From Piscicola geometra (lineage: Eukaryota > Annelida > Clitellata > Hirudinida > Piscicolidae): a stretch of DNA of 64,000 nt. How positions within the stretch are numbered: the stretch's first letter is position 1; the number at the start of each line of letters is the position of its first letter. The notes under the pieces were generated by a model. The model was not told where the DNA came from and did no database searches. It worked only from the letters and a program-made list of their open reading frames with translations. Positions 1-43,885 of this stretch are shown piece after piece. The translations under genes and the position numbers were made by a program. The stretch is from assembly GCA_943735955.1 (NCBI GenBank), contig OX030961.1:7628420-7692419 (forward strand), read 5' to 3'.

Positions 1-1304
1 TAATAATTTTTGACTTTAAACTGCCCTTACTAAGCTAGCCCTATCCTTGTTTCTATCTCAAATTTTTTCAACGAACGTTTGAAAAAGAATGTGGAACGGT
101 CAACTTTGAGTACGATTATTTCTAAGTGCGATTTGGTCCATATACTTAAAGGCATAGTTTGTCGAATAAAATTGAAGCGTCTTTTATGGAAAAGATCAAT
201 TTTTTTATGTATTTAAATATTTTCTAGCTGCTTATGAGTCATGTATTACTTTCATGAAACATTTTCCAGATAGATGAATGGTACCTCAACAACGGAATCA
301 AGGAACCTTTCTTCAGAGGCTTGGTCACTGTGAAAGGACGCAAACATGCAATATTAGCGACGGACACTCAGCTGAAGCTTCTTTCGAGCGCCAAGACCTG
401 GTACATGGACGTGAAGTCGCCATTCTCGCAATTGTTTTCTGTACACGCTATTGTAAAATACAAAAAATGTATAAGACAGCGACCACTCTGCTTTGTTTTG
501 ATGAGTGACAGGAAACGGAAGGATTACAGAAAAGTATATACAATTTCATGTTTTAACGAGATTTATATCTAAAAAAATGATTTTTTCGTTCTTCATTATT
601 TAATAATAAATAATTCGTTCTTTTTCCAGGTTTTGCTCAAATTGAACTCATTGCTCACTGAAGCAAGGGTGAATTCATTTGTGGTTGATTATGATGTGAG
701 TCTTTGGAACGCTCTTCGAGAAGTGTATGCTGATCCAGACATCAAGGGTTCTGCCTTCGACTTTGTCCAAGCACTTAAAAGCGAGTGTAACAAGCTGGGG
801 CTAATAAAAGCGTATGAATATCGCGATCATGTGTACAATGTGTTGAAAAAGACATTCGCCTTACCCCTGCTTCCACCAGCCGACATCCAATATGCCTTTG
901 AAAAAATTCGCAAAAGTGCACAATGTGAGCAACTAAAGCCCTTCTTTTCGTACTTTGAAGAAACGTGGCTAAGGAACAAAGTATGGACCGTCGAAAATTT
1001 GTCGATATATGGACGACCGGTACGTTTGATTACCGATGTTGAAGAATGGAATAGACGCTTCGCGAACGAGTTCAAAAGGGAGAGTTTATCTTTTATCCCC
1101 TTTATAACCATGCTATTCGAAGAAGGTCAGGAGGTGCCCACTGAATGCAAAATTATGAAAGAATGGAAGTTGAAGCGTTCTCAAACATGTAAAAAGAGTA
1201 CAGCTCCAGGGCAGTTGTGGGCAGCATGGAATCGGTTTGAGAAAGGAGAAATTAAAAAGAGTCAATTACTAGATGAGGCATGGAGGCTGTATGGACCAAT
1301 ATAA
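1..1304 (+). CDS. Gene A: 3' end of FLYWCH/MULE-derived gene (partial)
   Basis: Only the last two coding exons are in the window: 270-533 (264 nt, phase 0 to 0) after TTTTCCAG, and 630-1304 (675 nt, ends TAA) after TTTTTCCAG, separated by a 96-bp intron with GT at 534. Bases 1-269 are intron, alignable with the matching intron of gene B near 15240-15428. The product is a MULE transposase-like domain: TWYMD (first acidic residue at 408-410), VVDYD (687-689) and an E in VEEWN. The usual MULE Cys/His motif reads GSAFDF, with Ser and Asp instead (750-761). The 3' UTR, shared in part with gene B, has AATAAA at 1434-1439. Upstream exons lie left of the window. Family assignment is good; retained function is inferred from the intact frame. 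Confidence 0.8.
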
Positions 1305-1874
1305 TTAAGCTCAAAAGACACAGAGTCACCCCTAATTCACAGTATATAATTAATGTATCGACCCCTGTTGACTATTTTCATTTATATGTTTAGATATTCA
1401 TTTTAAATTGTTGATTCAATACATATAAGCAAAAATAAATAATTTTTCCCTTATGATTTGGCAGTTACGACCTATTACTCATGCAAAACGTTTCCATCTC
1501 AAACTAGACTTGTTCAAGTTTTATAAAAAGTTTAATTGTTTTTCTATAGGCCCAAAATAATGAAAAGTTAAACAGGGTCACACCTGTTTCATACCCAACT
1601 ATGAATTTCATGTGAAATGTTCTCATCTCTCCGTAAGAGACCTGCGTTGTTTTTAACTCCCTAAACTAAACTAAGGTGGCTCTGCAAAAATTCTTTGAAT
1701 GAAAACCTTTGATATTTTCTAGTAGTGTGAATAAACGTTCAGAAACATTATTCTCATTATTATCGGCTTCTTGTTACAGAATGGAGCGTGGCATCATGAA
1801 AAAACTCCCTTCAACTCGTTCTGTTCTCAGCCAACCTGTGGGTAGCGTAGATACTTCAGCCTTTTCTTCTAGAG

Positions 1875-42600: not shown

Positions 42601-43885
42601 TTCAAAATTAGATATTTATATTTGAATATAATAGATGACTCACAACTCTGTGTCTGCATTTCTAGCTTCTTGCATATGAGATTGATCTGGAAGGGCTTGC
42701 ATATCATCCTTCTCCCTGAATAGTGATTTAACATAAGGTTTAATAAAATAGACTTTTAATATAATATATATATAAAGATATATTTATATAATAGTTAAAC
42801 CAGGGCCCACTTTTTCAAAATTGGCCCGAAAAGAATCATGATTGACCCCAATGAATTTTGTTACATTTAAAAAAAATTCATTGTGACATTTTTGCAAAAA
42901 TTCATTGTGACATTTTTTTATAGATGTTTCTTTGTGTAAAGGGATCTCGCGGGAGCAAGTTGACATTAAAAAGTTGAACCAAGTTTAGCCTCATGTTTTA
43001 ATCCAGTCATTCACATGCAGACTCGACTTATCTATATAAGCTAATATACTTATATTATATAGCATACTTTTCAGGACCATTAGGTCATTGAAGTCACCTT
43101 AGATTAAAGAGATATAAAAAACTGGTTTTTCATTGCCTTAAAAGTACATTTGACGGGTCACTTTTAAAAAAAGTTTAAAAATTTGAAAAACTATAAAATG
43201 AAGAAGACATTTTCTATGTGTGGCTTATTGATTTGAAGCCGACTAGGTGCTCATTTAAGGTGAGTTAAAGAAAATATAAAAGTGTGCATTATACATGGAA
43301 CTTTTCAAAAATTTAGCCCCAAAAATTTTTGGCTTAGCGCGAGCCCTGTAAACTGTATACCATTAAACACATATCTGATTAATGATAATAATAATATATC
43401 TTTAAAGATATATATCTTTAAAAAATAAATAAATTGTATGATTGAAATATTATATTTAAAAGTTAGATTGATAAATGATAGTTTAAAAAAAGTATTATAA
43501 TACATTACCTTTGCTGTTCTCCCCAAAAGGTTGAAAGTTGTAGTGGACAAACATTATATGTTGATGATGAGTTCTCTGATGTTACCACTTCCATATTTTC
43601 AGCACTAAAAGTTTTTAAATAAAATTTTCGTGGTTTATTTTGTTGAGATTGAAACAAATTTTCAAATTTGAAAATATTATTCAAAAATTTATATTGTTGA
43701 AAAGATGAAGACACTTCACCTGAAGCAATTTCATGTGAAATTAAACAGATATATTACAAATTCCCACTTTTCTATTCGTATTTATTGATTCTCTTGAATT
43801 CATATTTTAGCTGATTTGAGTATTTATAATTAAAAAAATGCTAAATAAAAATATATTGTTCTCACAGTTGGGCTGTTTGATCCAT
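36623..43885 (-). CDS. Gene D: FLYWCH zinc-finger / MULE-derived protein
   Basis: Inferred exons in coding order: 43885-43866 (ATG, MDQTAQ), 43604-43509, 42715-42644, 42415-42344 (duplicate of the previous one), 42089-41955, 41701-41542, 41436-41405, 39423-39126, 39033-38630, 38515-38368, 37676-37413, 37297-36623. Shared exon lengths equal those of gene B almost throughout (96, 72, 135, 160, 32, 298, 404, 148, 264, 675). With one 72-nt exon it gives 767 aa, with both 791 aa. Domains are as in B: split FLYWCH, complete FLYWCH (QWRCTARS, HTHPPKP), Ser/Arg-rich linker, core-deleted FLYWCH, MULE-derived domain. Oddity: the base pair before the 42089 exon is AA, not AG, so that N-half exon may be skipped, which would keep frame but remove half a finger. 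Confidence 0.75.
41296..41392. repeat. (TA)n microsatellite
   Basis: About 48 TA units directly downstream (gene D sense) of the 41436-41405 exon. It creates an artefactual Tyr/Ile ORF. Confidence 0.97.
42245..42780 (-). repeat. Tandem duplication of a 24-codon exon in gene D
   Basis: Two direct copies, about 300 bp apart, each contain the same 72-nt exon (42715-42644 and 42415-42344, DDMQALPDQSHMQEARNAD) with the same acceptor (TTCAG) and donor (GTGAGTCATC) and matching flanks. Gene B has one copy (5897-5968). Both exons are phase 2-2, so both, one or none can be used in frame. Confidence 0.75.

Follow-up and report, generated by a model that had tools for sequence, protein, structure and literature searches.

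In a 64,000-nucleotide (nt) stretch of the genome of the annelid Piscicola geometra (NCBI GenBank assembly GCA_943735955.1, contig OX030961.1, positions 7,628,420 to 7,692,419 of the forward strand; C7:7628420-7692419 in our numbering), hereafter referred to as the window, we have identified a cluster of four related genes, A to D, that probably (at a probability of about 0.7) constitute a domesticated host gene family derived from a FLYWCH-carrying Mutator-like element (MULE) of the Phantom/Muta type, the products of which would be DNA-binding regulators rather than cut-and-paste enzymes. Domestication is supported by the intact multi-exon frames of genes B, C, and D, by lesions that all four genes have in common around what was once the active site, by purifying selection on the transposase-derived domain, and by FLYWCH fingers that have been retained and multiplied alongside added N-terminal exons confined to the cluster. 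The assignment to the Phantom/Muta type is a putative one, based on domain layout. The genome searched in this work comprised 171 Mb in 66 contigs.

The four genes are located within the first 44 kb of the window, with A and B in plus and C and D in minus orientation. The initial annotation had described identical terminal exon lengths and open frames over up to 12 exons, and both are recovered here: the penultimate exon is 264 nt and the terminal exon 675 nt (stop included) in all four genes, and B, C, and D each contain a single ATG-to-stop frame distributed over 12 exons (2487 nt and 828 amino acids (aa) in B; 2547 nt and 848 aa in C; 2427 nt and 808 aa in D), with GT-AG borders at all 11 introns. 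These three models are conceptual, their splice sites having been picked by eye from genomic DNA alone. Gene A lies partly in the window, which holds its last two exons; more of its exons, encoding two FLYWCH fingers and linkers, are found in the 10 kb upstream (locus L059), where its first exon was sought and not found. The first exons, which had been reported as shared by the genes, are shared by B, C, and D (that of D is 87% identical to that of B and 78% to that of C), and the stretches 5' of them are also similar. The features are as follows, where D1, D2, and E are the three acids of the catalytic domain and the deletion is the one described below.

270..533, plus strand: penultimate exon of gene A, 264 nt; D1 codon at 408-410, deletion junction after 410.
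630..1304, plus strand: terminal exon of gene A, 675 nt with stop; D2 at 687-689, Cys to Ser at 750-752, His to Asp at 759-761, E at 1041-1043.
4524..16484, plus strand: gene B, exons 4524-4609, 5897-5968, 9770-9895, 10393-10524, 11671-11830, 11936-11967, 12085-12174, 13294-13591, 13702-14105, 14225-14372, 15429-15692, 15810-16484.
13294..13591, plus strand: complete FLYWCH finger exon of gene B.
15429..15692, plus strand: penultimate exon of gene B, with TWYMD joined to VKSPF; D1 at 15567-15569, deletion junction directly after.
15810..16484, plus strand: terminal exon of gene B; D2 at 15867-15869; GSAFD, with S at 15930-15932 and D at 15939-15941; E of VEDWN at 16221-16223.
24716..34790, minus strand: gene C, exons 34790-34702, 32024-31929, 30728-30633, 30032-29937, 29683-29579, 29415-29320, 28968-28668, 28586-28330, 28138-27850, 27754-27572, 26842-26579, 25390-24716.
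28668..28968, minus strand: first FLYWCH finger exon of gene C.
27850..28138, minus strand: second FLYWCH finger exon of gene C, scoring 28.1 bits as the surrounding open frame.
36623..43594, minus strand: gene D, exons 43594-43509, 42715-42644, 42415-42344, 42080-41955, 41701-41542, 41436-41405, 39881-39792, 39423-39126, 39033-38630, 38515-38368, 37676-37413, 37297-36623.
43353..43970, minus strand: first exon of gene D and its upstream region; two stretches resemble 4373-4748 and 4066-4183 at gene B.

Genes B, C, and D possess small N-terminal exons, each a multiple of three nt long, that in part occur as near-identical neighbours (a 72-nt pair in gene D, 96%, and a 96-nt pair in gene C, 97%); hence their copy number can vary while the frame remains unbroken. 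With the exception of one match at E=0.8, these exons found matches only on C7, in the window and just upstream of it. The introns also harbour repeats. A long interspersed nuclear element (LINE) lies antisense inside an intron of gene B (6148-9489, minus strand), its frame of about 1,020 aa (6148-9222) containing endonuclease and reverse transcriptase domains, and sequence from this region (5989-6529) recurs at 47005-47533 with 92% identity. An intron of gene C contains, at 32103-32598, a repeat whose ends are inverted over about 92 nt (85%), and a different intron of that gene holds a further copy (82%) at 27051-27500; the repeat looks like a short non-autonomous DNA element.

The state of the active-site motifs was examined in an alignment of A–D and genome relatives with the best 120 of 224 MULE homologues. 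The three acids are retained in all four genes and in four genome relatives (D1 in TWYMD, D2 in VVDYD, and E in VE-D/E-W). Among the homologues, D1 is Asp in 107 of the 112 that have a residue there, D2 is conserved in 119/120 and E in 118/120, and the Glu of the E-D/E-W-N box of A–D aligns with the conserved Glu. Directly after D1, a clean deletion of 5 codons (GTFKV) has brought TWYMD straight into VKSPF in 4/4 copies, as had been noticed initially. In the homologues, T is present after D1 in 107/113 and F in 105/113, and the T position, two residues on from D1, is occupied in all 112 homologues that have a residue at D1. The deletion is likewise absent from all 16 other penultimate-exon loci of the genome (L043-L058) and was not seen among 11 proteins found with an A–D query, in 10 of which the D1 motif is readable. 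The CxxH motif between D2 and E has become SxxD (GSAFD; Cys to Ser and His to Asp) in 4/4 cluster genes, where the homologues show C in 119/120 and H in 116/120; of the terminal-exon loci L013-L038, 24 of 26 have both C and H readable (L030 counted as RGCAIH), L013 having a stop at the C and L022 being off pattern. Each N of the NN pair is found in 120/120 homologues; both are gone in A and D, and half of the pair is gone in B and C. Lastly, EGWH (G in 118/120 and H in 118/118 homologues) reads E(D/E)WN in 4/4, so that both altered motifs described in the initial annotation are present in every copy. Its suggestion that catalytic residues were lost has to be recast: D1, D2, and E are kept, and it is their neighbours (GTF, the C and H of CxxH, NN, and the G and H of EGWH) that are altered. 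By this alignment, A–D have kept the three acids and lost the second shell. In Muta1, a FLYWCH-MULE of Aedes aegypti, the substitution H307A cost 99.5% of transposition (PMC5225508), and because of this the A–D proteins are still likely to be non-catalytic.

Codon-based analyses indicate that the transposase-derived region has been under purifying selection. In a four-sequence codon model covering 312 codons of this region, the ratio of nonsynonymous to synonymous substitution rates (omega) is 0.476 (0.35-0.65; p=1.5e-5 vs 1), with values of 0.38 for the 264-nt exon and 0.49 for the terminal exon and the lowest value, 0.26 (0.11-0.57), at codons 20-137. Pairwise tests of the catalytic region gave omega below 1 in 6/6 pairs, each with p<0.03, and the codon model for the FLYWCH exon gave 0.60 (0.40-0.92; p=0.03). 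A ratio well below 1 had been proposed as the mark of domestication; what is found is significantly below 1 and moderate in size. In the stretches compared between B and D, there are no indels in 1981 exon bases vs 5 in 425 intron bases (p=1.8e-4).

The FLYWCH fingers appear from their profile scores and ligand pattern to have been kept and multiplied in the cluster. Genes D and C score 32.6 and 38.5 bits against Pfam FLYWCH (PF04500), above the cut-off of 23.6, and the C-C-H-H ligand pattern is present in 8 of the 9 finger copies tested, the first finger of gene A reading HTD where the others have HTH or HNH. Two exons of gene B (9770-9895 and 10393-10524) each specify the initial half of a FLYWCH finger, and either can be skipped in frame. 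A comparison with the Pfam MULE profile, suggested at the outset, gave a weak match. Genes C and D reach 21.1 bits (E 4e-4) against PF10551, under the cut-off of 27.6 bits, where three genome relatives score 46-52 bits; the homology of A–D to the MULE domain is nonetheless clear from the alignment. A sequence search of the PDB with profile A1 gave no match, and a fold search did give matches.

The 224 homologues were obtained in a profile search built with the genome's own relatives, and those of the 120 listed that have a named source are from animals (viz. molluscs, lancelets, cnidarians, crustaceans, nemerteans, echinoderms, and others), many others coming from metagenomes. A single-query protein search with gene D was empty at E<=0.001, which is probably a failure of sensitivity and no sign of an orphan family. 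In a tree of 54 sequences (A–D, six genome relatives, of which L068 is partial, and 44 of the 120 homologues), A–D group with the genes L030/L067 and L068 (ultrafast bootstrap, UFBoot, 80), L014 and L015 form a pair (93), and this pair joins the former group with a support of 82. Like A–D, L030/L067 and L043-L044/L068 are FLYWCH-MULE genes with damaged active-site motifs and an uninterrupted penultimate exon, which in L014, L015, L028, and L038 is split by an intron. Their lesions, however, are different: L030 reads TTTRF, has Asn at D2 and reads EGWA, and L068 has Glu at D1 and Asn at D2 and is without the CxxH region, its L044 copy reading as frameshifted. That the NN pair and the His of EGWH were lost before A–D and these sister genes split is moderately supported by the sequences. 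The sister genes are located at C2:2.53 Mb (L067) and at C1:16.22 Mb and C6:0.14 Mb (L068/L044), and the terminal exon of L030/L067 is open. Stops are present in 9 of the 26 terminal exons fetched from the genome. Loci L019, L020, L021, and L058, at different places, read TWYMN, with D1 changed from Asp to Asn (L053-L055 denote the positions of the first three), a damaged form that has apparently either spread or been passed on by descent. Dense MULE terminal-exon copies, several with equal scores and many with stops, occur at C14:4.33-4.95 Mb and are probably a segmental tandem array.

No terminal inverted repeats (TIRs) had been seen around the genes in the initial annotation. In the flanks of B, C, and D none that is convincing was found, the matches being a 47-nt dispersed repeat at B and low-complexity matches of 19 nt at C and 27 nt at D in what is a weak test; none was seen at gene A, where the 3' flank was compared with itself only. 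This absence carries little weight, because none could be demonstrated in the sister elements either: L015-type sisters have a common 3' end and no clear TIR, the 5' matches of L061 and L062 ending at N stretches and L063 diverging earlier, and matches between L028-type copies extend to the edges of the stretches compared. Dispersed L015-type and L028-type copies on different chromosomes share 95-98% identity across 3.8-8.9 kb, which suggests that these elements have been mobile recently. The terminal exons of A–D, 78-100% identical in the genome search, all lie inside an interval of about 47 kb; below them the best match drops to 41%, and no dispersed A–D-type copy with a target duplication was present among the matches listed.

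The history that we favour for A–D would begin with a FLYWCH-carrying Mutator-like DNA transposon giving rise to an ancestral host gene, which would then have spread in the locus by local direct and inverted duplication that included upstream regions and introns. The present proteins would bind DNA via their FLYWCH fingers, and the remodelled RNase H-like domain would provide a folded scaffold on which the proteins dimerise, contact DNA ends, or bind partners. Fingers and acids that are kept, a second shell that is lost, and frames that are preserved point to a DNA-binding protein and not to a working transposase, and its most likely use, as judged from these features, would be the regulation of host genes or the repression of related MULEs still in the genome. 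An intact frame, purifying selection, and an altered catalytic core, by which a domesticated gene may be recognised, appear together in the cluster, the frame of gene A being covered only in part.

Several observations weigh against domestication or limit its force. The constraint is moderate (omega 0.48) and not far under 1; pairwise tests of the FLYWCH exon reach p<0.05 in 1/6 pairs only, and neither the second finger (A vs C, omega 0.70, p=0.28) nor the linker exon of B, C, and D (0.62-0.97) is distinguishable from 1. A comparison of B with D across seven pairs of exons and four short introns shows the exons (95.0% identity) to be no more conserved than the introns (95.5%), and B and D each carry a FLYWCH copy without its first half. 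Synonymous changes are also few around D1-D2; low divergence there was consequently dropped as a sign of extreme constraint, and gene conversion may contribute by homogenising the region. The retention of D, D, and E leaves the inactivity of A–D less than certain, the Muta1 His was likened to the CxxH His from the paper with Muta1 outside our alignment, and the predicted structure is that of a homologue, P0003, rather than of A–D. The case as a whole is made from sequence, and the host function is putative. Some of these points would be expected if A–D were dead copies of one MULE insertion that was carried along by segmental duplication and is now unselected and not yet decayed: exons and short introns of B and D have diverged alike, the linker evolves at close to the neutral ratio, parts of FLYWCH are lost in B and D, and the related L068/L044 pair reads as decayed. 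We nevertheless consider this unlikely, since three frames of 12 exons each remain unbroken with synonymous distances reaching about 0.3, omega is below 1 in all six pairs, indels between B and D are confined to introns among the stretches compared, and the lesions common to all four genes predate the duplications, the frames having meanwhile stayed open.

The identity of D1, D2, and E in all four copies, together with the low omega at codons 20-137, speaks for a site that is still used. It is rather doubtful that A–D are a remodelled DDE enzyme or a DNA-end-binding factor, in which the acids are kept, the hairpin at D1 is shortened, and the change of His to Asp adds a fourth acid near the site; if they were, they would have a host use on DNA ends, e.g. 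in blocking or processing related MULEs. That the host still uses the triad to cut or join DNA, e.g. in programmed rearrangement or as a repair nuclease, is quite improbable: the His needed in Muta1 (PMC5225508) is Asp in A–D, the cluster genes have lost the T and F that follow D1, their NN pair is altered, as are both G and H in EGWH, and D2 is Asn in the sisters L030 and L068, indicating that the lineage can do without it. Least credible is that A–D are elements still moving with an unusual transposase. They are four similar copies of MULE-derived coding sequence in a genome with related dispersed copies; yet every copy of at least 78% identity lies in the one short interval, upstream regions, introns, and added N-terminal exons were duplicated with them, the active site bears lesions, and convincing TIRs were not found, weak as that test is. 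The domesticated family of DNA-binding regulators is therefore retained as our preferred interpretation. The presence in one genome of this gene family, its damaged sisters, and recently mobile-looking copies makes the order in which a transposase core is lost readable, and the cluster is a fair test case of whether the acids retained in domesticated DDE proteins serve structure or are still in use.

Elsewhere in the window, the simple repeats (TCAA)n and (CA)n form very long tracts that are open in several frames at 44905-46276 and 59629-60390, and a frame downstream of the latter (61275-61739) contains a C2H2 zinc-finger match. A fragment at 48233-48928 (minus strand) has a DUF4371 match below cut-off and is a putative hAT/ZBED-like gene. 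An Rfam scan of the window returned nothing at gathering thresholds.

In comparison with known systems, A–D resemble Phantom/Muta-type elements (Muta1, PMC5225508; Phantom, PMC6446971) in the placing of a FLYWCH finger ahead of a PF10551-type DDE domain and in the D-D-E order of the acids. Unlike these elements, A–D are without GTFKV after D1, have SxxD for CxxH and altered NN and EGWH motifs, gave no TIRs in the flanks compared, and have additional N-terminal exons, a 12-exon structure in B, C, and D, and at least two FLYWCH or FLYWCH-like segments. Phantom MULEs with FLYWCH are described in PMC6446971, and the L015-type sisters have a repeat array after the transposase frame, as is reported there for aphid Phantom; a nematode FLYWCH-MULE has, according to PMC3169594, a finger without its last His. 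No report of this deletion or of this cluster was found in the open-licence literature searched. The kind of system, MULE-derived FLYWCH genes, is already known and is not new: animal FLYWCH transcription factors are held to derive from Mutator transposases with lineage-specific expansion (PMC10027918), and A–D share with those genes both FLYWCH and the Mutator origin, a comparison by description in which the available part of that paper gives counts and domain layouts and not the state of the catalytic motifs. A–D are also comparable to FHY3/FAR1 of plants (PMC8599713; PMC13306707), which are MULE-derived regulators retaining a transposase domain, with a FAR1 DNA-binding domain and a SWIM finger (PMC8599713) where A–D have FLYWCH, and the two families presumably arose independently.
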